Shown in pieces: positions 35,400 to 56,886 of a DNA stretch of 64,000 bases (positions are counted from its first letter, which is position 1; every line of letters begins with the position of its first letter). A program made the position numbers and the translations under genes. The notes beneath the pieces are model-generated. The model did no database searches, was not told the origin of the DNA, and saw only the letters and a program-made list of their open reading frames with translations. Source of the stretch: Sphingobium indicum BiD32 (GTDB lineage Bacteria > Pseudomonadota > Alphaproteobacteria > Sphingomonadales > Sphingomonadaceae); contig NZ_CAVK010000123.1 of the NCBI RefSeq assembly GCF_000382885.1, positions 1-64,000 on the forward strand, given 5' to 3'.

Positions 35400-35409
35400 A
35401 GGGCTGACG

Positions 35410-39713: not shown

Positions 39714-39819
39714 GACGAAGGTCTCCTCGGGATCAGGGCAGGGTGTCGCGAAAGGGACGGCGGATGGCCCCTCAACATGCAGCCTGGGCCATCCCCCTGT
39801 CGCGACGACCCGCCTTCCA

Positions 39820-39846
39820 AGACGCAGCCTGGCGTGAAATCCTCCC
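39820..39846 (-). promoter_or_regulatory. Putative ECF-sigma promoter for the 39.7-kb amidohydrolase
   Basis: On the minus strand a GGGAGG hexamer (39,846-39,841) is followed by exactly 16 bases and CGTCT (39,824-39,820), with GCTG just before it. The same layout occurs at 48,918, 54,144 and 56,055. The site lies ~107 bases upstream of the start codon. Confidence 0.6.
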
Positions 39847-40011
39847 GGTAAAAGGGCGGGTGAGGAAATTCCGCGTTTCTATGGCTTTGGCTGTACCGGA
39901 ATAATGAGGGTCGTTCGTATTGATAAGCGTAGGGATCGGACCGTTTCGGCAAGGCGCGCGATCCCGGACAACGCGGCACGGGAGTACGGACGGGGCGGGT
40001 TCATCTTGGGA

Positions 40012-42498
40012 ATGCGGACAGCTTTTGAACATATGTTCGCGCGAACGGGGATTACCGCCGCGTCAGCCATGCTGTGCCTGCCAACCATTGCCGAAGCCCG
40101 AACCGAAATCGCTGTGCCCCGGCAGCGCCTCGAAAAGGCGATCCAGCAGCTTGCCTTGCAAAGTAGGCGGCAGGTCATTTTCTTCCCGTCCTCCCTGACG
40201 CAACAGATGTCGCGGCCGGTTGCGGGCCGCCTCTCCTTCGAGGATGCGCTGCGCCGCCTGCTCGCCGGGACCGGCCTCACCTTCCGGCAGGGGCGGGGCG
40301 GCGTCACCTCGATCGAGCCAGCACCCCAGGACGTCGCGCCCGGCGACGGCGGCGCACTTTCAGAGGACCTGCCATCCCGTTCCGTCGACCTCGTCGTCAT
40401 CGGCTTCCAGCCGACCGATCTGGTCGCTCTCGAAAGCGATGTGCAAGTGCGCCCAACCCGCTTGTCGCTGGATGGCGTGATGGAGGGCAGCGCTGCGACC
40501 AACGCCCAGCCTGGCAGTTCGGGGCAGCAAGGCATAGTCGTGCGCGGCATCGGCACGGCGGGCGAAGCCACCACGGTTGTCTATTTCGGCGACGTTCCCA
40601 TTTCCGGGCCATCAGGCACCGGCAGCGACAGCGCGCGCTCCACCATGGACCTGGCGATGGTCGATATCGCTCGCGTCCAGATTTCGCGCACGTCGCGGGG
40701 TACGGAACATGGCATGGGTGCGCTGGCGGGAGAGGTCGAGGTCGAACCCGAAGCGCCCCGGCTTGGCACATGGCAGGCGACCAGCACGGCTGGCCTTTCC
40801 CTGCTGCGCGGTGGCGATCCGGGCTATCAATTGTCCGGCACGATCAATGCACCGATCGGGGCCAGTGCGGCGATCCGGCTGACGGGTTATGCCCACCGCG
40901 CAGGCGGCTATGTCGACAATGTCCGCACGGGGGGACGCAACCTCAATGACGACGCTCTGCAAGGTGTCCGCCTCATCGCGCGCGCCAGGCCACTCGGCGA
41001 TCTCGACATGTCCGCCATGCTGGTATGGCAGCACCGACGGATCGACGATGGCGCGATGTGGTCTCGCGCGCTTGGCCGGTATAATACGGACCGGCACTTT
41101 GCAGCGCCGACCACCCATGATTTTCTGCTGGGCCGGTTCAAGGTGGAAAAGGGACTGGGCGGTGCCCGACTGACAGGCATCTCCTCCTTCTATCGCTGGC
41201 GCCTCGACCGCAATTATGACCGCACCAATCCTACGCTGCTCCAGGCGCAGGATCCTGCGGCTTGCCAGCGTTTCTTCGATCTGGCCGACACGGCATGCGA
41301 CACAGGGCAGGTCGGCGCATTTGCCGACCATGTCGAAAGCCTGACCCCCTCGCTCCTGCACATTCCCATCACCCTGCGCCGTCTTTCACAGGAGGTACGG
41401 ATCGAAAGCATCGGCGATCAGGGGCTGGGCTGGAAGGCTGGCGCGCTGATCGACCATAGATCGGAACGGTTCACCAGCGGCCTGTCCATCTATGATGGCG
41501 ACGACACGACACCCCCCGACTATTTCGGCCTGCGGCAGCTTTCGATCGGTCGGCTGCAAACCTCGGCCTTCGGCGACATTGGTTATCGCGAAGGCGGCTG
41601 GCAGGCCTCGCTTGGCCTGCGCTACGACCGGCACCGGGTCTCCTCGCGCAACGACGTGCTGGTGCCCAACATCATCAGCGGATCGATCGACAGCTGGCCG
41701 CGAACCGTGAAAAGGTCGCAAGGCGTACATGCCAGGGCGCATCTCGACATACCCATCAGCGCGCGCGCGACCTTTCACGCTCAGGTAACGCGCAGCTTCC
41801 GACCGGCGGGGGTCAATATCGCCTCGGTCCTGCTGGAGGATCGCCGGACCTTTGAAGGCGATTCGCTATGGGGGGTCGAGGTCGGCGCCAAGCTGCGCTG
41901 GTCGCCTGGGCTTTCGCTGACGCTGATCGGCTATATGAACACCTGGCACGACATGCAGTATCGCGCACTGTCGGAAAATCGGTCCCACGCCTATATCGTC
42001 AATGTCGGCACGGTGGCGATCCGGGGGGCGGAACTGGAAATGATCGCCCGCCCGTCCGACGGCGCGACGATCAAGCTGGCGAGCAGTTTCATCTATAGCC
42101 GGCTGGAGAGCGTGAGCGATGCCGGCCCGCTGGTTGGGGGTGCGGCGACGGGCGAGTCCATCCCCTTCGTATCATCGCATCGATCGACCCTGTCGGTCAG
42201 CCAGCGGTGGCCGCTGGGCGGGGACCGGAGCTTCTCCACGAACGCGAATGTGCAATATCAATCGGGATATTGGTCCACCTTCAACCGGCGCGATCCCGAT
42301 TTCCTGGCAACCAAGGGCTTTGTCCTCATGGGCGTGGAGGGTGTTTATCGCGCGGACCAGTCGTCGGTAACGGCCTCGATCCGAAATCTTTTCAACGATC
42401 GCGCGGATTTGCGCGCTTTGAATAATGGGTTTGGGATCGGTCAAACGTTAAGTGCAAGAGCACGGGAAATAGTGATTGCCTGGACAAGGCAGTGGTGA
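40012..42498 (+). CDS. TonB-dependent receptor with STN domain and divergent plug
   Basis: This is an 828-residue receptor from the ATG at 40,012, which gives a signal peptide ending at AEA. An STN domain follows at about 30-100 (RLEKAIQQLALQSRRQVIF, RLLAGTGLTF). The plug is unusual: the usual EVLRGPQG-type turn reads SRTSRGTEHGMGALAGEVE. The barrel then continues to the C-terminal aromatic (IAWTRQW). It precedes a second sigma/FecR pair in the same direction, which it probably signals through. A longer start at 39,904 is less likely. Confidence 0.88.
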   Translation: MRTAFEHMFARTGITAASAMLCLPTIAEARTEIAVPRQRLEKAIQQLALQSRRQVIFFPSSLTQQMSRPVAGRLSFEDALRRLLAGTGLTFRQGRGGVTSIEPAPQDVAPGDGGALSEDLPSRSVDLVVIGFQPTDLVALESDVQVRPTRLSLDGVMEGSAATNAQPGSSGQQGIVVRGIGTAGEATTVVYFGDVPISGPSGTGSDSARSTMDLAMVDIARVQISRTSRGTEHGMGALAGEVEVEPEAPRLGTWQATSTAGLSLLRGGDPGYQLSGTINAPIGASAAIRLTGYAHRAGGYVDNVRTGGRNLNDDALQGVRLIARARPLGDLDMSAMLVWQHRRIDDGAMWSRALGRYNTDRHFAAPTTHDFLLGRFKVEKGLGGARLTGISSFYRWRLDRNYDRTNPTLLQAQDPAACQRFFDLADTACDTGQVGAFADHVESLTPSLLHIPITLRRLSQEVRIESIGDQGLGWKAGALIDHRSERFTSGLSIYDGDDTTPPDYFGLRQLSIGRLQTSAFGDIGYREGGWQASLGLRYDRHRVSSRNDVLVPNIISGSIDSWPRTVKRSQGVHARAHLDIPISARATFHAQVTRSFRPAGVNIASVLLEDRRTFEGDSLWGVEVGAKLRWSPGLSLTLIGYMNTWHDMQYRALSENRSHAYIVNVGTVAIRGAELEMIARPSDGATIKLASSFIYSRLESVSDAGPLVGGAATGESIPFVSSHRSTLSVSQRWPLGGDRSFSTNANVQYQSGYWSTFNRRDPDFLATKGFVLMGVEGVYRADQSSVTASIRNLFNDRADLRALNNGFGIGQTLSARAREIVIAWTRQW

Positions 42499-42579
42499 CG
42501 ATGCCGACGGGCGGCAGCATGCAGGGACGATTAAGGGGCCGGAGAGGGCATCGCTATCAATCGGGGGGCAGCAGCAGCC

Positions 42580-43113
42580 ATGGACCGTTCAAGCAGTTCG
42601 CAACCAAAGGCGGCGCCCCCCGCATCCGGGCTGACGCATGATTTGATCGCCTTCACGCCCGCGCTGCGCACCTATTTCGCGCGCAAGACCCGCAATATGA
42701 ACATCGTCGATGATCTGGTGCAGGACGTCATGGTGCGCGTCCTGGCGCGCCGCACCCAGGACGAGATTGAAAATCCGCAAGCCTATCTGTTCCGCACCGC
42801 CGCCAATGTCCTGCGCGACAAGGCGCGCCGCGACATGGTACGAAAAGTCGAACAGCAAAAAAGTCTCACCGAATTTGATCATCCTGTTGAGGAATGTTCG
42901 CCCGATCGCGTCATATTTGCCAGGGAAGAGATAGCGCGTCTGATCGCGGTGCTGCAGGAACTACCCGAACGGACCCGCGACATCTTTCTGATGAAGCGGT
43001 TCGACGGATTGTCTCACGCCGAAATTTCGGCGCGCGTGGGATTGTCGGTCAGTGGTATTGAAAAGCAGATCGCAAAGGCCGTATCGCATCTCGCCCGGCG
43101 AATGGCCAAGTGA
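42580..43113 (+). CDS. FecI-type ECF sigma factor (second copy)
   Basis: This is a 177-residue ECF sigma factor. Region 2 is at about 35-90 (DDLVQDVMVRVLAR, NPQAYLFRTAANVLRD) and region 4 at about 125-175 (LPERTRDIFLMKRFDGLSHAEIS, SVSGIEKQIAKAV). It follows the STN receptor by 81 bases and precedes fecR by 18 bases. The receptor, FecR and sigma together make a standard cell-surface signalling set. The compact C terminus lacks the tail found in the first copy. Confidence 0.92.
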   Translation: MDRSSSSQPKAAPPASGLTHDLIAFTPALRTYFARKTRNMNIVDDLVQDVMVRVLARRTQDEIENPQAYLFRTAANVLRDKARRDMVRKVEQQKSLTEFDHPVEECSPDRVIFAREEIARLIAVLQELPERTRDIFLMKRFDGLSHAEISARVGLSVSGIEKQIAKAVSHLARRMAK

Positions 43114-43131
43114 AAGGGTAAGAGCGCTCCC

Positions 43132-44193
43132 ATGCCTGATCGGTTCGACGTTGCCGCGTCCTATCTTGCGCGCATCCAGTCGGGGACGGATAGCGTCTCT
43201 GCGCGCCGGGAACTGGATGCCTGGCGGAACGCCGCGCCCGAAAATCGGGACGCAGCGGACAGCGTGTTCGCGGCATGGGATGCGGCCGGATCGGCGGAGA
43301 CATCGCCTGAAATGCAGCAGATGCTGGCCGACATGCGCGCACGCTACGACCAGCCCGGACAGGATCGGGGCGGCGCCTGGAAGGGCTGGGCGATCGCGGC
43401 GGGGCTGGCGGCGATGCTGTCCGTCCCCGCGACGCTGTGGATGATCGATCACCGCCGCACCGCCGATACCGTGCAGCGCCCGGTGCAGTCCGCCGCGATC
43501 GCCGACGCGACGCGCATTGCGAACACCGATGGCGGCCGCCGCACCGTCCGGCTTGACGACGGATCGCGGATCACCCTCGACGTCGGCAGCGCGGTGCGTG
43601 TCGCCTATTCGACAGGGCATCGCGCGGTCACGCTGGAAAAGGGGCGCGCCCATTTCGTCGTGCATAAGGACAAGCAGCGCCCCTTTGTCGTGACGGCAGG
43701 GCGGTTGACGGCGACGGCGGTAGGCACCGCCTTCGACGTGCGGCTGTCCACCGGCGGTGAAGAGGTGATGACGTCCGAAGGTGTGGTCCGCGTCGTCACC
43801 CGGTTTCCCGCGGGTACAGGCGGCCATGCAACCTTGCTCAACGCTGGCATGAAACTGACGCAGAATGCAGCTTCGGTCGCGGTTGCGTCGATCGATGTCC
43901 TGCACGAAACCGCCTGGACCGACGGCAAGATCATCTTCTCGGGTCATTGCCTGTCGGATGTCGCTCGTCAGATGAACCCTTATGGTCGGTCGAGCCTCGT
44001 CGTTGGCGGCGACGCTGCCAATATCGCGATCAGCGGGGTATTCGACCTCGACAATGCCGACGGGTTGGCCGAGGCGCTGGAAAATCAGGGGCTGGCCACT
44101 GTTCGCCACGATGGCAGCCATATATTCCTTTCCCGCGCTGGTGCCACCGCCCCGGTCTCCTGCCGGACGAAGGCCTCAAGCACCCGATCATAA
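43132..44193 (+). CDS. FecR-family anti-sigma regulator (second copy)
   Basis: This is a 353-residue inner-membrane regulator. The N-terminal DUF4880 part (RRELDAWRNAAPENRDAADSVF) is followed by one membrane helix at about 85-105, then the periplasmic FecR domain (GGRRTVRLDDGSRITLDVGSAVRV), and a C-terminal DUF4974-like part. It is the partner of the sigma factor 18 bases upstream and should receive the signal from the STN domain of the 40.0-kb receptor. A long hairpin terminator follows its stop. Confidence 0.92.
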   Translation: MPDRFDVAASYLARIQSGTDSVSARRELDAWRNAAPENRDAADSVFAAWDAAGSAETSPEMQQMLADMRARYDQPGQDRGGAWKGWAIAAGLAAMLSVPATLWMIDHRRTADTVQRPVQSAAIADATRIANTDGGRRTVRLDDGSRITLDVGSAVRVAYSTGHRAVTLEKGRAHFVVHKDKQRPFVVTAGRLTATAVGTAFDVRLSTGGEEVMTSEGVVRVVTRFPAGTGGHATLLNAGMKLTQNAASVAVASIDVLHETAWTDGKIIFSGHCLSDVARQMNPYGRSSLVVGGDAANIAISGVFDLDNADGLAEALENQGLATVRHDGSHIFLSRAGATAPVSCRTKASSTRS

Positions 44194-44202
44194 CCGCATG
44201 GC

Positions 44203-44238
44203 GCAAAAGGCCGGACGGTCGCCCGCCCGGCCTTTTGC
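44203..44238. terminator. Bidirectional terminator between fecR and M14 peptidase gene
   Basis: A perfect 12-bp stem (44,203-44,214 with 44,227-44,238) contains A4 in the left arm and T4 in the right arm. It sits between the convergent fecR and M14 peptidase genes and can serve both. Confidence 0.8.
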
Positions 44239-44252
44239 ATCAACGATGCTGG

Positions 44253-47006
44253 TCAGGGCCGCTGCGCCGGTCCGTAAAGCAATGCGTTGAACAGGAATTT
44301 GAAGGTGCCATAGGATTGGGCGCGCTGCGCCACTTCGGGGGCCATTACGAACAGCTTGCCCTTGCCGACGTCGATATCGGCGACGGCGATTGTCCCGGCC
44401 AGCTTCTCCTGCCCCACGGCCCAGCCGCTGCGCAGCAGGTCGCGCCCGTCGAACCAGGACACATTGGTGTAGCCCGCAGCGCCCGGCGTCGGTGTGAAGG
44501 TCTGCGCCTGGTTGAAGAACATATCGACTTCGCTCGGCAGGCCGAAAGCCAGCGGCTGGCGATTGTCCACCCGCGCGCGCAGGATGGAGCCGGGAATATA
44601 GAAGCTCTTGGTGTCGAGCATCTTCGCCTCGCCATCCACCGCGCGCGTCAGCGCGGGTTTGAGCGGCGTCTGCATCAGTTCGATGAACCGCGCCGAACTG
44701 CCGATCGCGACCACGCTGCCGCCGCCCTTGACGAAGGCGGCAATGGCGGGCGCGGTCCTGGCATCGGTCGCCGCGCCCAGCATCGCCTTATATTCGGTCG
44801 GCGTATCCTTGGGATCGGGCTGACGGCTGGGTCGATCAGGCCCCCATGCGCCGGTGGGCGGCATGGCGTCGTCGGCGAACAGCAGGACGTCGAAATCCTT
44901 GGCCAGGTTGCCTGCGTCCAGCCGTTGCGGATAAACCTGCTCGAAGGAGAACTCGAACTTCTCCAGCAGCCAGCGGGTCCAGCCCGCCGGCATCAGCCCG
45001 CCATAACGATCGATCAGGCCGACGCGGACAGGCTTGAGCGCGATGGTCTCGCCCGTCGGCGGGGCATCCACGGCCTGTGCCGTGATGCCCAATTCCGCGC
45101 TCCCCCTCGTCACTATGTCGCGCGCCTGCGCGGAAGCGGGAATCCAGATCGCGCCGGGCTGCATCGTCTTGCCGTTTACCGTGACCGCCTGCCTGACCCA
45201 TGCCGGCCTGATGCCCGCACCGAGCAGCCGGTTGGTCAGGATGAAACTGTTGTTGGTTTCATGCCCCACGACCCAACCGGCCGATCCTGTGCCCTCGATC
45301 CGGCCGGGCGGTGGTGCCATCACATCGGGCACGGCGGTAAAATTGTCGGGCAGCGGGTCGAGGATGCGATCGAAGGCAACCCCCATCTGATAGGCGAGCG
45401 TATAGCCTGCCACGTCATAGGGTGCCTTGGGTGGTCCGCCGGGAAAATCGGTATCGTGCGGGTGATCCTGCGGCTCGAACATGTCGAGAATGTGCGGGCG
45501 GTATGCCTGGGCCGTGCGCACGACATAAGACCCCGCCGGATAGGTCTTGCCATTCGCCTGAAAGGCGGCGTCCGCCCGTTCGACGTCCACGCCATTCTTG
45601 ATGAGCGCGTTAAGGAAGGTGACGGCAGTTGGCAGATCGCTCTGGTCGGCAGGGATGATATAGGCGCGGGCATCGCGCTCGCCCGGCGCCTCGATCAGTG
45701 TCTTGTAGAGCGCAGGGTCGATCTTCTTGGGGCCGCTCCCCATCGGTCGGTTATATTCATCCTTGCCGACGACCTTGAGCGGTGCGGCGTCCAGCAGCCG
45801 GTCGACCTTTGCCGGCGTCACGGTCCAGCTGTCCTTGCTGCCCTTTTCGATGCTGTTCTGACCCATCCGCCAGATGTTGAAGAGCAGCCGTTCCCGGTTC
45901 CGCGACGCATAGTCCAGCACGGCGCGGTTCAGCGTCCACTGATAGTCGAGCGAATCCTGCAGGTGCCAGTCGCGCGGCGCGATCGGCATCATCTCGTCGC
46001 CGCGCGGCAACTGGGTCGAGGGGACGAGAGGGATTTTGGCGGGCGTCGGACCACCGATGATCTCGGTCAGCAGGCCGATGCTGTTGTGGAAATAGGCGAC
46101 CGATCGTTCCATGCCGTTGTGCCAGGTCGAATAGCGTGCGGCGCTGCGCGTGCCCGATCCGGCCTTGCCCTCCGAAATCAGCCGCGAATGCATCGAAAAG
46201 CCGACCTCGTTGAGCTGCGACATGACGATCGGATCATAGTTGAAGTTAAAAGGGTCGCGGAACGGCGGGACGAACACCACCATGCCCTCCGGCCCGGTCT
46301 GGTGCTGGTTGTAGATGATCTGCGGATACCAGGTGCGAAACAGCTGCCGGTTGACATTTTCCGTCTCCGGCATCGCCATCATATAGCTGTCGCGGTTGTT
46401 ATCGTGGCCGATATATTTCTGGTAAAGGCGCGGCAGGGTCGCGAACTCGCGTGCCTTGGGATCGGCTTTGCGCATATACCAGTTGGACACCAGTTCCATC
46501 CCGTCGGGATTGTCGTGCGCGAACAGAATGATGCAATCGTCGAGCATCCGCATCGTTTCGGCGTCGCTCTGGGTCAGCATCCGATGCAGAACCTGGATCT
46601 GCCCCTGGCTCGTCACTGTCTCGGTCGCGTGCATCCCCGCGTCGATCCACACGATCGCCTTGCCCCTGGCGGCCAGTTGCAACGCTTCCGCCTCGCTCAC
46701 GCCCTTGGCCCGAGCCAGCTTTTGCGCGATCGCGCGATAATCGTCGAGCCTGGCGAGATTGGCCGGTGACGACACGATCGCCATCCATTGCGATCGCCCT
46801 TCCGCCGTCTTGCCGATATCGACCAGTTTCATCCGGTCGCTCTCGCCTGCCAGCTTTTTGAGATAGGCCTCATATTCACTGTAGTTGGCGAGATAATAGT
46901 CGGTGCCCGGCTTCTGCTTGAAGAAGGCTTCGGGCGCGGTCTGCGCCATCAGGGGTGCGGACTGCGCCAGCAGCGCGGTCGTAAGCAACAGCCAGTGCGG
47001 TTTCAT
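44253..47006 (-). CDS. Secreted M14-family metallocarboxypeptidase
   Basis: This is a 917-residue exported peptidase with a signal peptide ending at LMAQ. The zinc pair His126/Glu129 is in GMHATET, the third ligand His is in YNQHQTG, and LLTEIIGG probably holds the catalytic Glu. RDSYMM and HDNPDGM are further M14 motifs. The C-terminal ~250 residues resemble a class I glutamine-amidotransferase-like (DUF4159-like) domain (DVLLFADDAMPP, VKGGGSVVAIG). It is 58 bases downstream of the 47.1-kb amidohydrolase and is probably co-transcribed with it. It should trim peptides in the periplasm. Confidence 0.9.
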   Translation of the reverse strand: MKPHWLLLTTALLAQSAPLMAQTAPEAFFKQKPGTDYYLANYSEYEAYLKKLAGESDRMKLVDIGKTAEGRSQWMAIVSSPANLARLDDYRAIAQKLARAKGVSEAEALQLAARGKAIVWIDAGMHATETVTSQGQIQVLHRMLTQSDAETMRMLDDCIILFAHDNPDGMELVSNWYMRKADPKAREFATLPRLYQKYIGHDNNRDSYMMAMPETENVNRQLFRTWYPQIIYNQHQTGPEGMVVFVPPFRDPFNFNYDPIVMSQLNEVGFSMHSRLISEGKAGSGTRSAARYSTWHNGMERSVAYFHNSIGLLTEIIGGPTPAKIPLVPSTQLPRGDEMMPIAPRDWHLQDSLDYQWTLNRAVLDYASRNRERLLFNIWRMGQNSIEKGSKDSWTVTPAKVDRLLDAAPLKVVGKDEYNRPMGSGPKKIDPALYKTLIEAPGERDARAYIIPADQSDLPTAVTFLNALIKNGVDVERADAAFQANGKTYPAGSYVVRTAQAYRPHILDMFEPQDHPHDTDFPGGPPKAPYDVAGYTLAYQMGVAFDRILDPLPDNFTAVPDVMAPPPGRIEGTGSAGWVVGHETNNSFILTNRLLGAGIRPAWVRQAVTVNGKTMQPGAIWIPASAQARDIVTRGSAELGITAQAVDAPPTGETIALKPVRVGLIDRYGGLMPAGWTRWLLEKFEFSFEQVYPQRLDAGNLAKDFDVLLFADDAMPPTGAWGPDRPSRQPDPKDTPTEYKAMLGAATDARTAPAIAAFVKGGGSVVAIGSSARFIELMQTPLKPALTRAVDGEAKMLDTKSFYIPGSILRARVDNRQPLAFGLPSEVDMFFNQAQTFTPTPGAAGYTNVSWFDGRDLLRSGWAVGQEKLAGTIAVADIDVGKGKLFVMAPEVAQRAQSYGTFKFLFNALLYGPAQRP

Positions 47007-47064
47007 GCAAATCTCTTTCGATGGAAGGTCCGGTTCGGGCGGCGCAGGGGTGCACCGCCCTTGT

Positions 47065-48852
47065 TCAATAGAAGCGGATATTGTCGATGCTCAGCCACAG
47101 ATATTGTCCCGCCGGGCGGGTGCCGCCAATCTCGACCTGGGTTATGCCATCGGGCGTGAAGGCAGCGCCGGTCGCGCCCCGGCCGGTGATCGGCGTGAAG
47201 GCGGTGAAGGGCAGTTGCGCCGTGGTCCAGGCATCGGTCCCGCTCACACGCGCTTCCCATGCCCCCTCCAGCCCGTTGATCCGCACGATGAAGTCGCCAG
47301 CGCCCTTGATGTCGAACGTCACCCCCTTGTACATCGCGATCTTGACCGGCGTCACCGATCCGCGCGTCAGCGGCACGATGACACCCGCATAGGCATTGTT
47401 CTTGATCGACATCTTCGCCGAGAGCGACAGCATCTTGCCGCCCTCGTCGCGTGGTACGATCTGCGTGATTTCCACCGTCCGGTCGAGCCCGCCGTCGGGA
47501 TTTTCCAGGCGCACCGTGTCGAGCGTGGACCGCTTGTCGGGTCGCTCGAAATCGTCGATCAGCGCGGGCACCGTGACGGAGGGGAGATATTTGGCGGCGT
47601 TGCCGACCGGCAGCGGCGGCGCGCCCGGCCCACTCATCAGCTTGCCGTCGATCAGAACCTGCGCGGTCTTGTACAGATCGGTGATGGTCGTCCAGGGCGT
47701 CCCGTCGATCAGGACGATATCGGCGCGCTTGCCGACAGCGATTGTGCCTCTGTCGCCGTCGATGCGCAGCACCTTGGCGCTGTTCCGGGTGCCTGCGACC
47801 AGCGCCTCGCTCGGCGTCATGCCCGCTTTCACCAGCAATTCCATCTCGTGCAGCGTGGAACGCCCATGCGGGGTGCCGGGCATGCCCGCATCTGTGCCCA
47901 CGGCAATCATCACGCCCGCATCGTGCAGCGCCTTCACATTGCCCAGCGCATAGCCGAAATTGACGAGCGACCGCTTGTATCGGGGATCGTCCGTGGTGAC
48001 GGGTGTATCGCGCGGCTTGTAGGGATCATAGACCGCCAGCGTCGGTGCCATCGCCATGCCCGTCGCCTTGATCGCGGCGACTTCCTCTGCCGTGATCGGG
48101 CGATCCTGCATCCCGTGGGCCAGCGAATCCACCCCGCCGCGCGCTGCAACCAGGCCGCGTTCCACCGTCACCGTATGGGTCACGACCGGCCAGTTGCGCT
48201 TGTGCGCCTCGTCCGAAATGGCGCGCAGCGTCCACTGGTCCATGCTGGTGTTGTCGGGCGAACTGCCATAGCGCCAGCCGTCGGCAAAGGCCTTGATAAG
48301 ATCGGGTTGATAGGCGTCGAGCGACTTGATCGCCGTGGCCCCGCCTTCGGCGGTGCTGACGCGGATCGTGGTGTTCGCGTCGCCCCAGTCGGCACCATGG
48401 CCGCCCGGCGTACTCAGCCGCGCGGCGAACGCCACATGGGGCGTCGCCAGCGTCTTGAGCCACGCACGGCGGGGCGCATAGGCTTCGGGCTGCTGGTGGA
48501 AATCGGTCACGGTCGTCACGCCCGACTGCACATAGGCCGTCGCGATCTGCGGCGTGGTGGCGGGGAAGCCGCCGGGTGTCCAATGGACATGCACGTCGAT
48601 GAAACCCGGCAGGACCGCCTTGCCCCTGGCGTTGATGACCTTCGCCCCCCGGGGTACGGCCACATCCTTGCCCACCGCAACGATGCGGTCGCCCTCGATC
48701 AGGATCGTGGCGGGCATCGGTGCCGCGCCGGTGCCGTCGAACAGCATGCCGCCCACGATCGCAGTCATGGTGCCGCCCGTCTGCGCGGGAACCGAGCCGA
48801 GCGGCAGCGTGAGCGCTGACAACAGCAGCGCCGCGAGGAAATGTTTGCGCAT
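47065..48852 (-). CDS. Secreted amidohydrolase fused to a CIA30-like domain
   Basis: This is a 595-residue exported amidohydrolase. The metal ligands are intact: HxH in DVHVHWTP, His in VVTHTVTVE, His in SLAHGM and Asp in VGTDAGMP. After residue ~435 comes a separate domain (LIDDFERPDKRS, FDIKGAGDFIVRI, WLSIDNIRFY) that matches the CIA30/galactose-binding-like jelly-roll fold. It likely hydrolyses a cyclic or amide substrate, perhaps held by the extra domain. A shared island promoter lies ~66 bases upstream. The M14 peptidase gene follows. Confidence 0.87.
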   Translation of the reverse strand: MRKHFLAALLLSALTLPLGSVPAQTGGTMTAIVGGMLFDGTGAAPMPATILIEGDRIVAVGKDVAVPRGAKVINARGKAVLPGFIDVHVHWTPGGFPATTPQIATAYVQSGVTTVTDFHQQPEAYAPRRAWLKTLATPHVAFAARLSTPGGHGADWGDANTTIRVSTAEGGATAIKSLDAYQPDLIKAFADGWRYGSSPDNTSMDQWTLRAISDEAHKRNWPVVTHTVTVERGLVAARGGVDSLAHGMQDRPITAEEVAAIKATGMAMAPTLAVYDPYKPRDTPVTTDDPRYKRSLVNFGYALGNVKALHDAGVMIAVGTDAGMPGTPHGRSTLHEMELLVKAGMTPSEALVAGTRNSAKVLRIDGDRGTIAVGKRADIVLIDGTPWTTITDLYKTAQVLIDGKLMSGPGAPPLPVGNAAKYLPSVTVPALIDDFERPDKRSTLDTVRLENPDGGLDRTVEITQIVPRDEGGKMLSLSAKMSIKNNAYAGVIVPLTRGSVTPVKIAMYKGVTFDIKGAGDFIVRINGLEGAWEARVSGTDAWTTAQLPFTAFTPITGRGATGAAFTPDGITQVEIGGTRPAGQYLWLSIDNIRFY

Positions 48853-48917
48853 GAAGAAGATGCCCCCTTTGTCCCTATGGCCGGACGGAACAGTCCCCAG
48901 GCCTTGTCATCTTCTAG

Positions 48918-48944
48918 AGACGCAGCAACCGCCAACTCCCTCCC
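48918..48944 (-). promoter_or_regulatory. Putative ECF-sigma promoter for the 48.9-kb amidohydrolase operon
   Basis: On the minus strand, GGGAGG (48,944-48,939), 16 bases, then CGTCT (48,922-48,918), again with GCTG before CGTC. The site lies 66 bases upstream of the amidohydrolase start. Confidence 0.6.
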
Positions 48945-48989
48945 AACAAAGGCCGATCCATCACGCAGCGATCCATTTCGGACAAATCC

Positions 48990-50855
48990 TCAATAGCCCA
49001 CGCCATAGCCCATGCGCCGGGGGTCGGACCCACCCATGCGCGCGCCCGACGGATCGGCCAATATCCCCTGGATGCTGCCGATCGCATAGGGACCGACCCG
49101 CTCGATTCTGTGGCCCATGCCGCTCAGCGCGCCAATCATAGCATCGGAATAGCGCCCTTCCATCTGCACTGTAATCGCAGCGCCGGGCTTGTAGAAATTG
49201 GGATCGGCCTCGACCGCAAAGCGCGGTGCCTCGATCGCCGCCTGGATCGGCATGCCACGGTCGATCACGTTCACCAGGAACTGGAACTGGGTCTGGCCGA
49301 TGGTTTCGCCGCCCGGCGAACCGAACACCATCCTGAACCGTCCCTTGTCGAGGATGATCGTGGGACCGTTGCCCAGCAGCGCCTTCTTGCCCGGCGCGAT
49401 CCTGTTGGGATGGCCAACATAGGGTGCTGACGATCCCAGCCGCAGGCCGTTATTGCAAAGCAGGCCCGTGTCCCCCATCACGACGAAAGTGCCGAAGCCG
49501 CCGCCCACGGTGGTCGTCACCGCGATCGCGTTGCCATCCTCGTCCACCACCGACAGGCTGGTCGTATCGCCGCCGCGCGTATGATCGTCGCCGCGCATCG
49601 CGAACATTGGGGGCTGACGATCGAACATCCCTGCCTGGAACCGCGTCGCATCGCCAGCTGTCGGATAGGCCATCGCCCGCGCCCGGTCGATCAGCTTGCG
49701 CCGCTCGGCCGCGAACCGCTTGGATAGCAGACCTTCGACCGGCACCTGGGCGAAGGACGGGTCGGCGGCATAGTGATAGACATCGGCCTTGGCGACCTTG
49801 AACGTCTCGATCAGCAGATGAGTCAGGTCCGGGCCGTCGGCGGGCAGGGTGGATATGTCCCATCCCTCCAGCAGGTTGAGCGCCTCGCACAATTCCAGTC
49901 CCGTGCGCGACGTCAGCGGGCTGGAATAGACGTCCAGCCCGCGATAGTTGGTGCTGACGGGCTTGTCCCATTGCGGCTTGTACGCCTTCATGTCCGCCAG
50001 CCGCAGCCAGCCGCCGGTTGCCTCCGAAAAGCGCGCAAACTCCTGCGCCACCGGGCCGGTGTAGAACCAGTCATAGGCCGCATCCAGCGCCTTGCCATGG
50101 TCCGCGCCGCCCTTGCGCGCCTTCGTGTCGGCATCGGCCAGCGCCTGCAGGGTGCGGCCCAGCGGTTCGTTCATGAAGATGGAGCGCGGCGCGGGCGGCT
50201 GGCCGCCAGGCAGGAAGATCGCCGCGCTGGTGGGATAGAGCCGTAACGTCTTTTGCGCGCGGGTGATGAACATTGCGATCGACGGATCGAGCGGGTGGCC
50301 ATCGCGCGCATAGCCGATCGCAGGTTCCAGCAGCGTCGCGAGCGGCAACCGCCCGAACCGCTTGGCAAGCGCGATCCAGCCACCAAAGGCACCGGGCACC
50401 GCCACCGCCCTGGGGCCATGGTCCAGATCCTTGGGATCGCCGTCGGGATCAAGCAGCATGGGCGCGCCGCCGGTGAAGGCGAGCGAGGATATCTCTCCGC
50501 TCCGCTTGTGGAAACAGGTGGCAAAGCCGTTGCCCGCCGCGCTCGACGCCCAGGGTTCGACCACGTTCATGACCGCCATTGCCGCCACCGCCGCGTCGGC
50601 CGCGCTGCCGCCCTGCATCAGCATCCGCACCCCCGCCATCGACGCGAGCGGATGCCCCGCCGCCACGCCGCCATGCGGCATCGGCACCTCGATCCGGTGC
50701 GCGGGTACGGTCGCCAGGCCGGACCGTGGCGCATCGGGCGCTGCCTTGCCGGACTGCGCAATCGCGCCGAGGGGCAGGGTGGACAGTGCCGCGCCTGCAA
50801 GCCCTGCGGCGATGACCTCACGCCGGCCCAGCCCCTGGGAAATAGTCTCGCTCAT
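48990..50855 (-). CDS. Gamma-glutamyltransferase-fold Ntn hydrolase (atypical)
   Basis: This is a 621-residue exported protein with a twin-arginine-like signal (GRREVIAAGLAGAAL). The Ntn fold is supported by the autoprocessing site: catalytic Thr431 in GGDTTSLSVVDEDGN, where the usual TTH is TTS, and by GSPGGETIGQ. The loop that in classical enzymes reads DFREMAP, with the Arg that binds the gamma-glutamyl carboxylate, reads AFTGGAP here. It is therefore probably a related amidase, not a true gamma-glutamyltransferase. It is 102 bases downstream of the 54-kb receptor gene on the same strand. Confidence 0.8.
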   Translation of the reverse strand: MSETISQGLGRREVIAAGLAGAALSTLPLGAIAQSGKAAPDAPRSGLATVPAHRIEVPMPHGGVAAGHPLASMAGVRMLMQGGSAADAAVAAMAVMNVVEPWASSAAGNGFATCFHKRSGEISSLAFTGGAPMLLDPDGDPKDLDHGPRAVAVPGAFGGWIALAKRFGRLPLATLLEPAIGYARDGHPLDPSIAMFITRAQKTLRLYPTSAAIFLPGGQPPAPRSIFMNEPLGRTLQALADADTKARKGGADHGKALDAAYDWFYTGPVAQEFARFSEATGGWLRLADMKAYKPQWDKPVSTNYRGLDVYSSPLTSRTGLELCEALNLLEGWDISTLPADGPDLTHLLIETFKVAKADVYHYAADPSFAQVPVEGLLSKRFAAERRKLIDRARAMAYPTAGDATRFQAGMFDRQPPMFAMRGDDHTRGGDTTSLSVVDEDGNAIAVTTTVGGGFGTFVVMGDTGLLCNNGLRLGSSAPYVGHPNRIAPGKKALLGNGPTIILDKGRFRMVFGSPGGETIGQTQFQFLVNVIDRGMPIQAAIEAPRFAVEADPNFYKPGAAITVQMEGRYSDAMIGALSGMGHRIERVGPYAIGSIQGILADPSGARMGGSDPRRMGYGVGY

Positions 50856-50888
50856 GGGTCCGCTCCCTCACACCCGGTAAAATAATTA

Positions 50889-50947
50889 CCCCGGCAGGCG
50901 ACGAGGGTTGCTCCCGTCACCGGCCGGGGCGTTACCCCTTTTCGGGG
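50889..50947. terminator. Hairpins between receptor and GGT-like gene
   Basis: Two inverted repeats lie in the gap after the receptor stop: a short CCCC-TTTTC-GGGG stem (50,935-50,947) and an imperfect ~16-bp stem (50,889-50,929). Neither has a long T tract, so they may only weaken transcription into the next gene. Confidence 0.45.
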
Positions 50948-50957
50948 CGTGCGACCG

Positions 50958-53900
50958 TCAGAAGGACTTCTTGGCGCCGACATACCAGTAGCGCGCCTGC
51001 GGTGCGAACAGGGCGGACTGGTAACCGTTGTTGGAGAAGGGCGGGTTCTTGTCGAAAGCGTTACGAACGCCCAGCGTCAGGCTCGATCCCTTGAGCATGC
51101 CTTCGTTCTGGAAATTATAGGTCGCGTAGAAATTGACCGTGGTCAGCCCATCCACGACGAACCGATCGCCTTCCGTGTTGATGACATTGTTCATGTACGT
51201 GTCGCTGATGAACTGGGTGAAGGCACCAAGCTCGACCGGCCCGGACGAGAAGTTGAGGCTTCCCGAAATGCGCCAGCGCGGTTGGCCTTCGCGGCGAAGG
51301 ACGCTGCCGCCACCCTGGACCGCAACCAGCGGATTGATCGTCCCGTCGCCGCGGGCATCGATGATCGCCTGGGTGCTCGCGGCGGCGAGCACGTCATATT
51401 TGATGAGGCGGGCGGCGTTCAGGTTGAGCGAGAATCTGCCGATGCCCGTGCTCACCCGATATTCCAGGTTGAAGTCGATACCGTCGACCTGCACCGGCAA
51501 CAGATTCTCGAACGGTGCGACGACATATTGCAGCTCGCCCACCGCGGCGAGGCCGGTGCCCGCGACCAGCGCTTCGTCGGCGGCGGTCGGGGCCGCGCGC
51601 ACCACGCCGGGGTTGCTGCTGCCCTGGGTGCGCAACAGATAGTCGAGCGTCATCGAGTTCTGGAAATCGACCAGGCCGATCACATTCTTCTGCTTGATCC
51701 GCCAGCGATCGACGGTCAGCGTCACGTTGCCGAAGCCTTCGGGCAGCGGCGGGGAAAATACCGCGCCGAAGTTCCAGCTGGTCGATTCCTCCGGCTTGAG
51801 GTTCGGGTTGCCGCCACTCTGGCGCTGAACCGACAGGCTGCGGTTACAGGTTGCAAAGCTGGTTATGCGACCGGCTCGCAGATCGGCCTCGCACAACACA
51901 TAGTCGGTGCCGGTGCCCACGCGCACCAGCGTGTCGGTATTCACCACCTCCAGGTTCGGCGCGCGGAATCCCTGCGACCAGGAGCCGCGCAGACGGATGC
52001 CGTCCAGCAAGTCCCATGCGACTGCGACCTTGGGCTTCGCCACGCTACCGACATCGCTATATTTCTCGTAGCGGCCGGCGACCTGCACGTCGACCGACCG
52101 GAACATCGGAATGTTCATGTCGGGTGTGAAGAGCGGGATGGCGAGTTCGGCATAGGCCGAATAGACGTTGCGTTTGCCACGCACGTCGGGGCTGACCGAC
52201 GCACCGGCCAGATTGCTGTCATAGACGATGCCGGTGATGCTGTCGGTATATTTGGTCGATCCGTCCTGGTTCGTATCGCGATTATCATGATAGGTTTCGC
52301 GACGGATTTCCACGCCAGCCGCGACGCCGACATTGCCGCCGCCCCACAGGCCGATCAGTTCGGCATTGGAGAGCTTGAAGTCCCACAGGGCGAGCGATGT
52401 CCGGTTCTTGCGGACGCTGGTGATCCGCATGCTGTCCATGGTCGCCGGGTTGTTGACCGTGCAGTCGCCAAGCGAGGGGGTATCAACGCACCCGCCGTTG
52501 AACGGGTTGTAGGCATCGGACGTCGTCCGGTTGATCGCGGCCTGGATCAGGTTGCTGGAAATGCTCTGCATGCTGTCGCGCACGGTCGCCCAATTGTAGA
52601 GCGCGGCCGTGTCATAGTTCCAGGACCCGAAATTGCCCTTCAGGCCACCCAGGAAGCGATACTGGTAATTGACCACGTCCACGGGACGCGGGCCAACATC
52701 GACGAAGCTCAGCGCGCTGATCGTCACCGGCACGCCAGCGTCGGAGATGTTGAGGCCGGGCAGGCGGTTGGGCGATCCGACCGCGCCCAACGGGTTCCAA
52801 TAGGCACTGGCCGCCACGGTGATCGGCGTGGTGTTGAGCGATCCGCCCGGCCCGGTCAACGCATGGGTTTCACCCCGGTAGAAACCGGCCTCGCCATAGA
52901 GGGTCAGCGTATCATTGATGTCGAAATGAGCGGTGCTGAACAGGTTGATGCGGTTGATCGACGGTGTGGCTGTCAGCGACTTGTCCGACAGTGGCGTATT
53001 GTAGCGCAGGTTGGAATCGACAGTGGCCATCTCGGTCGTACCGTTGCCATCGTCGATACACACGCCGGCCGTGCTGGTCGCGACCCGGCAGCCGCTATTG
53101 CCGTCGGGCTGGACGTGGAACTGGCGCGATGCATTGGTGATCGGCGTGCCGTTGCTGGTGATGATGCCGCTGCCCGATGCGCGGAACGTGCCCCAGGGCG
53201 TGCTGTTGCTGGTGCCGTTGAAGGCGGCGACGCCCTCGAACGGCGTGCCGATCACTTCGGCGCGGCGATCGACGTCCGCAGTAAAATCCTGGTCGCTGAG
53301 ATATAGTTTCGTCTTGCGCGCATAGCCTGCGAAGAAGGTGATGTTGCCGCGATCCTCGGCAAAGTTGGCGCCCACAAAGCCGTTGGCCGAGAATTCGCGC
53401 AGGTTCGTGCCTTCCGCGCCGCCATATTGCATGTCGAACTTCGCGCCCGTGAAGTCCGATTTGAGAACATTGTTGATTACGCCTGCGACCGCATCCGATC
53501 CATAGAGCGCCGCCGCGCCATCGCGCAGCACCTCGACCCGCTCGATCGATCCCACCGGGATGGCGTTGGCGTTGTAGCTGAAGATCGGCACGCCCGAATC
53601 GATAGCGCCTGAGATCGACTGCGACGTCGGGTGCAGCACGGTGCGGCGGCCGTTGATGAGCAACAGGGTATTGCCCTGGCCCATGCCACGCAGGCTGATC
53701 GACGACACGTCGCCGCGCGCGGCATTGGGGCTGCCGCCGCCGATCGCCTGCTCGTTGAAGGCAGAGCCGCCCAATTGCGGGATGGAGCGGAACAGGTCGG
53801 CGCCCGACACGGCGGCCACGCCCCTGATCGTCTCTTCGCCTACGGTATTGACGGGGATGGCGCCGCTTGCCTTCAGCCCCTTGATCTGGCTTCCGATCAC

Positions 53901-54044
53901 GACGATTTCGGCCTGTGCCTCGTCGCCGGCCGCGTCCGCCAACGGCGGTTCCTGCGCCATGGCTGATGGAATCCCGGCCATCATCGCCAGGCTGATCGCC
54001 AGAATGCTGGCCGTTGCGCGCGTCTCGAACCGTACGGATTTCAT
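50958..54044 (-). CDS. TonB-dependent receptor without STN domain
   Basis: This is a 1,028-residue outer-membrane receptor starting MKSVRFETRA after an AGGGGACA site, with a signal peptide ending at SAMAQ. A TonB-box-like EIVVIGSQIK is at about 47-56, then the plug (INGRRTVLHP, VEVLRDGAAALYGSDAVAGVINN) and the barrel ending GAKKSF. It has no STN domain, so it transports but does not signal. The long form and plug resemble peptide-type receptors in sphingomonads and xanthomonads. A shared island promoter lies ~100 bases upstream. The open frame upstream of 54,044 is not part of it. Confidence 0.92.
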   Translation of the reverse strand: MKSVRFETRATASILAISLAMMAGIPSAMAQEPPLADAAGDEAQAEIVVIGSQIKGLKASGAIPVNTVGEETIRGVAAVSGADLFRSIPQLGGSAFNEQAIGGGSPNAARGDVSSISLRGMGQGNTLLLINGRRTVLHPTSQSISGAIDSGVPIFSYNANAIPVGSIERVEVLRDGAAALYGSDAVAGVINNVLKSDFTGAKFDMQYGGAEGTNLREFSANGFVGANFAEDRGNITFFAGYARKTKLYLSDQDFTADVDRRAEVIGTPFEGVAAFNGTSNSTPWGTFRASGSGIITSNGTPITNASRQFHVQPDGNSGCRVATSTAGVCIDDGNGTTEMATVDSNLRYNTPLSDKSLTATPSINRINLFSTAHFDINDTLTLYGEAGFYRGETHALTGPGGSLNTTPITVAASAYWNPLGAVGSPNRLPGLNISDAGVPVTISALSFVDVGPRPVDVVNYQYRFLGGLKGNFGSWNYDTAALYNWATVRDSMQSISSNLIQAAINRTTSDAYNPFNGGCVDTPSLGDCTVNNPATMDSMRITSVRKNRTSLALWDFKLSNAELIGLWGGGNVGVAAGVEIRRETYHDNRDTNQDGSTKYTDSITGIVYDSNLAGASVSPDVRGKRNVYSAYAELAIPLFTPDMNIPMFRSVDVQVAGRYEKYSDVGSVAKPKVAVAWDLLDGIRLRGSWSQGFRAPNLEVVNTDTLVRVGTGTDYVLCEADLRAGRITSFATCNRSLSVQRQSGGNPNLKPEESTSWNFGAVFSPPLPEGFGNVTLTVDRWRIKQKNVIGLVDFQNSMTLDYLLRTQGSSNPGVVRAAPTAADEALVAGTGLAAVGELQYVVAPFENLLPVQVDGIDFNLEYRVSTGIGRFSLNLNAARLIKYDVLAAASTQAIIDARGDGTINPLVAVQGGGSVLRREGQPRWRISGSLNFSSGPVELGAFTQFISDTYMNNVINTEGDRFVVDGLTTVNFYATYNFQNEGMLKGSSLTLGVRNAFDKNPPFSNNGYQSALFAPQARYWYVGAKKSF

Positions 54045-54143
54045 GGATATGTCCCCTGTGTGCAGCGCCCCCGGCTGATGCCGTGGGGCCGATCTGCCTT
54101 CCCTCCTCTCCGTCTGATGCGTGTCAGCCTTCTTCACTGCTAT

Positions 54144-54170
54144 TGACGTGGGCTGCGGCATTCCCCTCCG
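54144..54170 (-). promoter_or_regulatory. Putative ECF-sigma promoter for the 54-kb receptor
   Basis: On the minus strand, CGGAGG (54,170-54,165) preceded by a T7 run, 16 bases, then CGTCA (54,148-54,144). It matches the layout at the other island promoters but lacks the GCTG before CGTC. The start codon is ~100 bases downstream. Confidence 0.55.
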
Positions 54171-54205
54171 AAAAAAATGACAAATTCCTTTCAGTCAGGG
54201 GAATG

Positions 54206-54233
54206 CGGCGCCGGTCGTGCGGGACCGGCGCCG
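54206..54233. terminator. GC-rich hairpin after the GGT-like gene
   Basis: A perfect 11-bp stem (54,206-54,216 with 54,223-54,233) lies 8 bases beyond the stop of the minus-strand GGT-like gene. It has no T tract, so termination is likely but not strongly supported. Confidence 0.5.
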
Positions 54234-54240
54234 TTCCTGC

Positions 54241-55992
54241 TCATTCCACGCCCTTGGCCAGCGCGTCGGGCCGCCGCGTGTCGGCCGCGCCCAGGAATTT
54301 TTCGCCCTCGACCATGATCGACTGGGTGCTGCCCATCGTGTCGGACAGCCGCACCTTGTGCCCCTTGGCTTCCAGCAGCGGCTTGAGGTCGGGCGAGAAG
54401 CCTTCTTCCAGCTCCAGAGGATCGTCCGCGCTCGACTGGTGGATACGCGGCCGCTCGGCGGCTTCGGCGATGTTGAGGCCATGGTCGATCGTGTTGACCA
54501 GCACCTGGGTCATCGCCGAGATGATGTAGCCGCCGCCCGGCGACCCCGTCACCAGCCACGGCTTCTTGTCCTTGAACACGATCAGCGGGGTAATGGTCGA
54601 TCCCAGCCGCTTGCCCGGCGCGGGCCAGTTCGCTTCTCTGCCCTTCTCCCGACCCCAGTTGAAGTTGCCCAGCGAATTGTTGAGCAGCACGCCCGTGCCT
54701 TGCGGCACGACATGCGCGCCGTAGGATGCGGTCAGCGTATAGGTGTTGCTCACCGCATTGCCATATTTGTCGGCGACCGAATAATGGGTCGTGTCCGGGC
54801 TTTCGTGGGGATAGGGATTGCCGTCGGGCAGGTTGGCGCCATTGAGCGAGGCGGTGGGCGAAATCAGCTTCACCCGTTCGTCCGCATAGGCTTTGCTGGC
54901 GATGCCCTTGGCTGGTGTTTTCCAGTCGGGCAGGCCGCCGATCAGCCGCCGGTCGGACCCGGCAACCTTCATCGCTTCCGACATGATGTGCAGACCCTGC
55001 ACGCTGCCCCAGCCATAATCCTTCATCGGAAAATGTTCGAGCAGGTTCATGATCTCCGCCAGCGTCGCGCCCGACGATGTCGGCGGCATGAAGGCGATGT
55101 CGTGGCCGCGATAGCTGCCCCAGATCGGCTCCAATATCTCGACCTTGAAGTCGGCCAGGTCCTGCTCGTCGACGATGCCGCCGCCGCTGCGGATGCCCGC
55201 GACCATTTTCTGGGCGAGGGGCCCCTTATAGAAGCCGTCGCGTCCGCGTGCCGCCACCTGCTTCAGGCTCCAGGCGAGATCGGGCTGCTTGAAGATGTCG
55301 CCGGGCTTGTAGGCGGAGCCGTCGCGCTTGAAAAAGGCCTTGGTCGCGCCTGGATCCTTCATCATCACTTCGCGTCGGCCAGCCGTGGCTTCCGCCTCGC
55401 CGTCGCTCAGCCGATAGCCCTGCGCCGCCAGCCGGATCGCCGGTTCGACCAGCTTCTTCCAGGGCAAGGAGCCGAACATGCGATGCGCTTCCCACATGCC
55501 CGCGACCGTGCCTGGCACCGCGACATTCTGGAAGGTCATGGATTTGGACCGGTCGAACTTGCCGTCTGGGCCGAGCAGCAGGCCGGGCGTGGTCGCGCGC
55601 GGCGCCGTGCCATAATAGTTGATGGTGATGGTCTTTGCAGGCTTGCCGTCCTTGGCCGCTATGTGGATCACCATATAGCCGCCGCCGCCGATATTGCCGG
55701 CGCGGGGCAGGGTGACGGCCTCGGCAAAGGCGACCGCGATCGTCGCATCGACGGCATTGCCGCCCTGGCGCAGGATTTCTACGCCGACATCGGTGGCGGG
55801 CGCGCTCTGGCTCGCCACCATGCCCTTGCGGCCGATGACGGGTCCATGAATCTGGCTGTAATTGACGATGTCACCGCCGCTGCCCCGCTCTTGCGGTGGT
55901 GCCACCGGCAACTGTGCCTGACCCATGGTCGCGCTGGCCATCAGGCTGACGATGACGGCATAGGAAATCATGTTGGATGGTCTGTAGTGCAT
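54241..55992 (-). CDS. Gamma-glutamyltransferase-family Ntn hydrolase
   Basis: This is a 583-residue exported protein starting MHYRPSN after AGGGGAATG. The nucleophile is Thr401 in SPDTTHYSVADKYGN, the normal TTH form, and GSPGGGYI follows. The N-terminal part has PRAGNIGGGGYMV. The loop that should read DFREMAP, with the Arg that binds the gamma-glutamyl carboxylate, reads NYYGTAP, so substrate choice may differ. It lies upstream of the 54-kb receptor on the same strand with a shared-type promoter at 56,055. It probably hydrolyses amide or gamma-linked peptides in the periplasm. Confidence 0.85.
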   Translation of the reverse strand: MHYRPSNMISYAVIVSLMASATMGQAQLPVAPPQERGSGGDIVNYSQIHGPVIGRKGMVASQSAPATDVGVEILRQGGNAVDATIAVAFAEAVTLPRAGNIGGGGYMVIHIAAKDGKPAKTITINYYGTAPRATTPGLLLGPDGKFDRSKSMTFQNVAVPGTVAGMWEAHRMFGSLPWKKLVEPAIRLAAQGYRLSDGEAEATAGRREVMMKDPGATKAFFKRDGSAYKPGDIFKQPDLAWSLKQVAARGRDGFYKGPLAQKMVAGIRSGGGIVDEQDLADFKVEILEPIWGSYRGHDIAFMPPTSSGATLAEIMNLLEHFPMKDYGWGSVQGLHIMSEAMKVAGSDRRLIGGLPDWKTPAKGIASKAYADERVKLISPTASLNGANLPDGNPYPHESPDTTHYSVADKYGNAVSNTYTLTASYGAHVVPQGTGVLLNNSLGNFNWGREKGREANWPAPGKRLGSTITPLIVFKDKKPWLVTGSPGGGYIISAMTQVLVNTIDHGLNIAEAAERPRIHQSSADDPLELEEGFSPDLKPLLEAKGHKVRLSDTMGSTQSIMVEGEKFLGAADTRRPDALAKGVE

Positions 55993-56054
55993 CTCATTCC
56001 CCTGTTTCGCGGGAAGCCGGCACGATTCACATGCTTCCGCCACTCAAAGGTCAA

Positions 56055-56081
56055 AGACGCAGCACTCGCGGACAACCCCAC
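56055..56081 (-). promoter_or_regulatory. Putative ECF-sigma promoter for the 56-kb GGT-like gene
   Basis: On the minus strand, GTGGGG (56,081-56,076), 16 bases, then CGTCT (56,059-56,055), with GCTG directly before CGTC. The site lies 63 bases upstream of the start codon. Confidence 0.58.
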
Positions 56082-56264
56082 CACAAAAAGACAAGGGCTG
56101 CACGCCAATCGTCGTCCGGTGCGGCAGAAGGGAGGATGCCCCACGCGCGAACGGAGGGCAGGCCATCGGTGAGGTCCGGAGCCTTCTCCACGCCGCACAC
56201 CTTCTCGATCGCCAGCCGCGCGGGGTTGAAGATGGCGGCATGATTGCCCTTTCAAACCCGGCAC

Positions 56265-56294
56265 CAAAATCCTCCCCTGCAAGGGGGGAGGATT
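56265..56294 (-). terminator. Terminator of the hemerythrin-like gene
   Basis: A 10-bp inverted repeat (56,268-56,277 with 56,285-56,294) is followed on the minus strand by TTTT. It belongs to the same TCCTCCCC/GGGGAGGA group as the hairpins at 416 and 22,126. Confidence 0.7.
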
Positions 56295-56363
56295 GGCTTC
56301 ATTCCCGAAACGCGAATATCAGGTTTGCAAACTATATTATCGCTTAATTTACAGGTCTTTACC

Positions 56364-56828: not shown

Positions 56829-56886
56829 GAACAATCCTCCTCTTGGTTTCGGGAGGAGAACGATGGGACCGGCAAATGGGTCCGTG

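Follow-up and report, generated by a model that had tools for sequence, protein, structure and literature searches.

The stretch of DNA analysed here (the window) comprises the first 64,000 nucleotides of contig NZ_CAVK010000123.1 of Sphingobium indicum BiD32 and contains a gene island that looks, from its gene content, built for peptide uptake and breakdown. The island encodes a FecI-type extracytoplasmic function (ECF) sigma factor (Sig2), a FecR-type regulator (FecR2) and a TonB-dependent receptor with an STN signalling domain (STN2), together with two amidohydrolases (Amid1 and Amid2), an M14 carboxypeptidase-like protein, a second TonB-dependent receptor (TBDR_B) and two gamma-glutamyltransferase-type proteins (GGT1 and GGT2) (Table 1). 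Four sites resembling one another lie upstream of Amid1, the Amid2-M14 pair, the TBDR_B-GGT2 pair and GGT1. These are very probably promoters whose -35 and -10 elements Sig2 recognizes, with a detected regulon confined to the island; on the best reading, the predicted regulon comprises the two amidohydrolases, the M14 peptidase, the two GGT-type proteins and the importer TBDR_B. Computation shows that the sites exist, that they are conserved, that in this genome they are confined to the island and that they are associated with Sig2.

The first-pass annotation of the window had claimed that a G-rich hexamer, 16 bases and CGTC precede four minus-strand genes, and all four sites are present on that strand, with coordinates and gene starts as claimed. 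The spacer is exactly 16 bases at each of the four and is followed by CGTC, the end of which lies 107, 66, 100 and 63 bases from the start codons of Amid1, Amid2, TBDR_B and GGT1, respectively. The GCTG seen earlier directly before CGTC is likewise found at three of the four sites. Also as claimed, the two STN receptors lack the pattern upstream: outside the four sites the window maximum is 8.6 bits, and the matrix score at 30411, the start of the first STN receptor, is 5.9 (background level). The extended motif consists of a T-tract, a G-block, the 16-base spacer and CGTC, with CTG commonly before CGTC and T after it; the -10 block is usually seen as CTGCGTCT. The T-tract was outside the pattern first described. 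Of 24 sites, several of which are mutual copies, 18 have four or more T among the six bases directly 5' of the hexamer, compared with 1.4% of the six-base stretches of the window and two of 198 other G-block hexamers; the Amid2-M14 site has three T only. Genes of the island are preceded by a pair of conserved blocks with the 16-17-base spacing of ECF promoters. A Shine-Dalgarno reading of CGGAGG for a longer TBDR_B frame (ATG at 54161) was rejected, as this ATG is not conserved among relatives.

Table 1. Promoter-like sites and genes of the window (scores in bits for the sites are from the model built from relatives only; G numbers denote genomes of relatives)
Feature	Position	Strand	Details
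Promoter-like site 5' of Amid1	39846-39821	minus	GGGAGG-N16-CGTC, T-tract directly upstream; 24.3 bits; position kept in G081 and G080, looser version in G058 and G050
Promoter-like site 5' of Amid2-M14 pair	48944-48919	minus	GGGAGG-N16-CGTC; 16.7 bits, weakest of the four; position kept in G081 and G080
Promoter-like site 5' of TBDR_B-GGT2 pair	54170-54145	minus	CGGAGG-N16-CGTC; 20.5 bits; position kept in G081, G080 and G050, related site 5' of TBDR_B2 in seven further genomes
Promoter-like site 5' of GGT1	56081-56056	minus	GTGGGG-N16-CGTC; 17.5 bits; position kept in G058, weak in G050
Amid1, amidohydrolase related to Xaa-Pro dipeptidases	38307-39713	minus	PF01979; NF051886 198.3 bits, below cut-off 500
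STN2, TonB-dependent receptor with STN signalling domain	39904-42498	plus	PF07660 (E=1e-7), PF00593; Plug below cut-off; true start may be downstream of 39904
Sig2, FecI-type ECF sigma factor, proposed reader	42580-43113	plus	PF04542, PF08281
FecR2, FecR-type sigma regulator	43132-44193	plus	PF04773 (E=1.5e-18)
M14 zinc carboxypeptidase-like protein, downstream of Amid2	44253-47006	minus	PF00246
Amid2, amidohydrolase	47065-48852	minus	PF01979
GGT2, gamma-glutamyltransferase-like, downstream of TBDR_B	48990-50855	minus	PF01019; TIGR00066 324.7 bits, below cut-off 357.85
TBDR_B, TonB-dependent receptor (importer)	50958-54044	minus	PF00593 and PF07715; no STN match
GGT1, gamma-glutamyltransferase	54241-55992	minus	PF01019; TIGR00066 477.6 bits, above cut-off
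Sig1, second ECF sigma factor of the window, not the likely reader	~29641-30258	minus	FecI-like class

The genome-wide check that had been suggested gave a divided answer: the bare hexamer pattern fails and the extended motif passes. GGGAGG-N16-CGTC has 28 matches in the genome (4.79 Mb) versus 22 for a reversed control and was rejected as a genome-wide marker. The 26 literal matches outside the window each lie under an open frame of at least 133 codons in one of the six frames, and none of them has as many as four T at positions -8 to -3. Within the window the three literal patterns have no further match on either strand. A degenerate hexamer gives five matches at N16 versus 0-4 at every other gap from 8 to 25 in the window, and 23 matches versus 2-17 at other gaps in the regions of 12 relatives. 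GGGAGG-N15-17-GCTGCGTC is found at a single place outside the window. Since the literal pattern is near background, the case rests on the comparison of places and on the longer motif.

The longer motif was tried in both directions. A matrix built from the sites of relatives only (20 sites) places the four window sites at ranks 1-4 among all window positions, with scores of 33.2, 26.6, 23.5 and 18.2, the next being 7.0. For a search of 94 Sphingobium genomes the model was made from 14 of these 20 sites, aligned without gaps and partly selected by the block spacing; those dropped as copies or near-copies came from G093, G037, G074 and G035, with two more from G080, and G032, which has Sig2, contributes no site. 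Under strict filters 60 candidates were scored per genome (for the own genome, 60 of 1413 first-look candidates). The window sites are the top four in the own genome (24.3, 20.5, 17.5 and 16.7 bits), the fifth candidate having 13.1 bits. All 22 matches of at least 20 bits fall within 12 of the 13 genomes with Sig2; the top score among the other 81 genomes is 18.0 bits. A search with GGT2 gave 16 loci (14 named Sphingobium and two metagenome bins), and the model has six matches in L040 and L055 and none in 13 other loci. In the opposite direction, with a matrix that uses no sites but the four of the window, an island promoter comes out at rank 1 in 11 of the 12 relatives' regions (79,924 positions ranked in each, 39,924 in G035), the exception being G032. 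Island promoters take ranks 1-4 in G081 and G080 and ranks 1-2 in G058, and the lead over the second match is small in G077 (1.6) and G035 (1.1).

The weaker model matches in genomes without Sig2 were inspected in 12 contexts: one sequence recurs in four of them, and the others resemble chance. Two such loci, L191 and L190 (genomes G085 and G075), share a motif-like site of 18.0 bits, TTTTG-CGGAGG-N16-CGTC.

Phylogenetic footprinting places the motif before island genes. In the 40-kb regions of the four closest relatives the degenerate pattern occurs 12 times, and 11 of these occurrences immediately precede island genes: Amid1, Amid2 and TBDR_B in G081 and G080, GGT1 in G058 and G050, TBDR_B in G050 and, with a copy of its own in G081 and G080, a divergent M20 peptidase gene (G080 and G081 are the same genomes as loci L040, AP50, and L055, YR768, and were counted once). 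The M20 gene (L040 11940-13349, minus strand) lies between GGT2 and Amid2 in AP50 and YR768 and has no tblastn match in the window. In seven genomes with a Sig2 that is 55-56% identical, looser sites (ATGGGG or ATGTGG, N16, CGTC) are found 5' of the receptor TBDR_B2; these, and the Amid1 sites of G058 and G050, were found by eye. Across 12 pairs of orthologous sites, identity is 3-8 of 14 positions in the gap, 4-6 of 6 in the hexamer and 4-6 of 6 in GCGTCT; blocks are conserved and the gap diverges, as in ECF promoters.

A further comparison is between receptor genes beside Sig2 and those away from it. In Sig2 islands the region 5' of TBDR_B or TBDR_B2 reaches at least 12.4 with the window matrix in ten of 11 relatives, the single exception being G058, and 39.7 in the window itself, versus 4.0 or less at all 13 loci where a TBDR_B ortholog has no adjoining Sig2. 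Twelve of these 13 contrast genomes lack a close Sig2 (the best matches have 37% identity along most of the protein, or 45% with E 5e-21); the thirteenth locus, L041, belongs to the same genome as G035, where Sig2 lies on another contig. In G077 the GGT2-linked TBDR_B has no site and the TBDR_B2 beside Sig2 has one. When the window TBDR_B site is left out of the matrix, G081 and G080 score 15.9, G069 12.1, G050 11.7 and the window 9.1. At two of the loci away from Sig2, L041 (6614-6644) and L045 (6629-6659), TTTTC-GGGAGG is kept and TCTG replaces CGTC after N16; L042 and L043 are similar (T-tract, G-block, TCTG), and L044 is not.

Several observations weigh against assigning the sites to Sig2 across the island. 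G077 and G035 bear Sig2, yet each has a TBDR_B ortholog away from it that lacks a site; as the copies within these genomes differ, the motif goes with the Sig2 island and not with every TBDR_B of a Sig2-bearing genome. Separation is weaker when the window TBDR_B site is omitted, with the other six TBDR_B2 sites at 3.4-4.8 and contrast loci reaching 8.3. Of the 22 strong matches most belong to the training set or closely copy its members, and the window sites are the only ones wholly outside it; because the relatives' sites were partly picked by hexamer and CGTC, their conservation is partly built in. With the window-only matrix, the G050 Amid1 site ranks sixth and its GGT1 site 832nd. The strict degenerate pattern has 11 matches in the eight more distant regions, of which seven fall at one place within the Sig2 gene and none precedes a mapped island gene; the 26-base site is identical in five of the seven distant genomes. 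There is no clear site in G032 (Sig2 48-49% identical), nor 5' of TBDR_B in G058, where the gene begins about 0.2 kb after GGT1. Finally, the sigma operon lacks the motif and nothing shows autoregulation: 5' of STN2 the score is 1.9 in the window and -4.5 to 10.0 in the nine relatives scored (G093 and G074, with N there, and G032 being left out), and the top value, in G077, comes without CGTC.

The first-pass annotation had also proposed that one of the two sigma factors could drive all four genes, which the footprinting supports, with the data favouring Sig2 over Sig1. Sig2 orthologs occur in 13 of the 94 Sphingobium genomes, own included, and each of the 12 relatives also carries parts of the island. 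A search beyond the genus, in which the top eight candidates of each of 397 sampled genomes of the family were scored, gave a match at E 1e-44 in the own genome only. A close Sig1 ortholog (E 1e-64 or better) is present in 16 of the 94 genomes, own included, with a partial copy in G005; the query was the frame 29769-30390, which begins before the likely start and misses the end. Three genomes (G058, G092 and G074) have Sig2 and the motif and no close Sig1, and six (G053, G020, G087, G044, G042 and G007) have a close Sig1, no Sig2 and no match above 17.9 bits. On present evidence the motif thus belongs to Sig2, since it tracks Sig2 and not Sig1 across genomes.

Among the alternatives, the one that survives best is that the sites are real ECF-type promoters read by another ECF sigma factor, such as an ECF26-like one, or by more than one with overlapping taste; we consider this unlikely, although no search was aimed at an ECF26 sigma factor. 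A promoter of the RpoE4 type (ECF26) before SMc04049 of Sinorhizobium meliloti reads GGGAAT-N16-CGTC (PMC6180224; N16 counted in this analysis), and such promoters are closely similar to the island sites, which also have a GGGA-containing -35, 16-17 bases and CGTC. They differ in that the island -35 ends in GG and not AT, the sigma factor is FecI-like with a FecR, and the sites are confined to one island. The genome holds 24 first-look ECF candidates, and the -35-like block with a different -10 before the receptors away from Sig2 in G077 and G035 means that a sigma factor with a similar -35 taste may exist. A sigma factor with wider duties would, however, predict sites elsewhere, and the own-genome search gives only the four among its 60 scored candidates. 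The genome has 57 receptor-barrel matches, three on the contig of the window and 54 elsewhere, and the stretches upstream of the latter contain no model match (53 of them and one around Sig1 amount to 150,513 bases, to which the last was added; several end at contig ends). The motif, moreover, follows Sig2, although a third sigma factor may share the distribution of Sig2.

That the sites are Sig1 promoters is very improbable. Sig1 lies in the same window and is of the same FecI-like class, but it is only 30% identical to Sig2, its close orthologs and the motif occur apart in the nine genomes given above, and in G080 and G081 it lies on another contig. Its neighbouring receptor, moreover, carries a different conserved element, AAAATGAGATA...TTAGCAGA-like, which lies between Sig1 and the divergent STN receptor (30334-30375 in the window), is kept at all 12 Sig1 loci, own included, and is a candidate Sig1 promoter or operator. 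The adjacent stretch of the window (30422-36648) holds a second peptide-gene set (the STN receptor, a penicillin-amidase-like protein and an M19 dipeptidase) without the Sig2 motif.

There is similarly little chance that a DNA-binding regulator uses the sites as its operator or that they form a leader RNA element. Two conserved blocks at a fixed distance upstream of gene starts would fit a two-part operator as well, but the motif is, by eye, neither palindromic nor a direct repeat, a scan of nine island proteins showed enzymes, receptors, the sigma factor and FecR, no sigma-70-like promoter was found 5' of the four genes, and no Rfam family is present in 38000-57500. A chance pattern selected by eye, which the background frequency of the literal form and an N16 count hardly above that of other gaps in the window would suit, can practically be dismissed given the out-of-sample ranking in both directions and the receptor contrast between Sig2 islands and loci without an adjoining Sig2.

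Assignment to Sig2 invites comparison with known systems. FecI/FecR/FecA cell-surface signalling is classed as ECF243, formerly ECF05-09 (PMC9249621). Like that system, the island has a FecI-type sigma factor and a FecR encoded together (PF04542, PF08281 and PF04773) with an adjoining STN-domain receptor (PF07660), side by side, and its proposed targets include an outer-membrane importer; Sig2 scores 67.2 bits against the FecI equivalog NF041727, below the cut-off of 260. Unlike that system, the operon of the signalling receptor has no such promoter, so that the STN receptor is not seen as a target of its own sigma factor; the importer that has the promoter has no STN domain, and the other proposed targets are peptidases and GGT-type proteins. 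The likeness to the iron-starvation sigma factor PvdS that the earlier annotation had drawn stands in part. The PvdS box is TAAAT-N16-CGT (PMC2235872), and the island sites share the 16-base gap and CGT in the -10; their -35, however, is a GC-rich G-block in place of TAAAT, and instead of siderophore genes they precede genes for peptidases, GGT-type proteins and a receptor. In titles and abstract openings of the open-licence literature we found neither this motif nor any FecI-like sigma factor of a sphingomonad whose target promoter had been mapped. The arrangement suggests an ECF promoter with FecI-type signalling, unusual in its GC-rich -35 and in its split receptors.

A nearer comparison is offered by eight Sphingobium loci (L046-L052 and L054), which like the island have TBDR_B-GGT2 orthologs with a FecI-like sigma factor nearby; a FecR-like gene is present in seven of the eight (the L054 locus ends early). 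Unlike the island, they have no model match and no Sig2 ortholog in the genome, their sigma factors are 30-34% identical to Sig2, and TBDR_B carries an STN domain in the two tested. In these two, L046 (6567-9962) and L047 (6579-9989, STN below the Pfam cut-off), the receptor stands beside its own FecI-like sigma factor and FecR-like gene.

Under the preferred reading, RNA polymerase with Sig2 would recognize an element made of the T-tract, the G-block (GGGAGG, CGGAGG or GTGGGG) as -35 and, 16 bases on, CGTC as -10. The STN2 receptor would sense the substrate and pass the signal through its STN domain to FecR2, which would free Sig2; Sig2 would then activate Amid1, Amid2-M14, TBDR_B-GGT2 and GGT1, and uptake and breakdown of a peptide-like compound would rise together. 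We infer that the sigma factor binds, where transcripts start, how far the operons extend, how the signal is passed on and what the substrate is; the order of signalling is carried over from FecI/FecR/FecA, and it is the promoter part that the present data back. A sigma operon without the motif and an importer without an STN domain, orthologs of which have one in the two loci tested, suggest that here one receptor senses and another imports. It is conceivable, if rather tentative, that the island is a split peptide-signalling system in which STN2 is mainly a sensor outside sigma control and the STN-less receptor imports under it.

The relatives hint at a change of wiring, which their sequences suggest took two forms: the same importer with its own STN domain and another FecI-like sigma factor (L046 and L047), or TCTG in place of CGTC (L041 and L045). 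The TCTG-type promoters look as if another sigma factor reads them, and in G035 and G077, where both kinds of receptor coexist, it is as if the -10 element decides which sigma factor reads which receptor. Such natural variants, in which the -10 or the sigma factor differs, allow the co-change of promoter and sigma factor to be studied. A motif tied to one sigma factor and one island is, in addition, a ready test case, as it predicts which genes are activated together and points to a peptide-like inducer.

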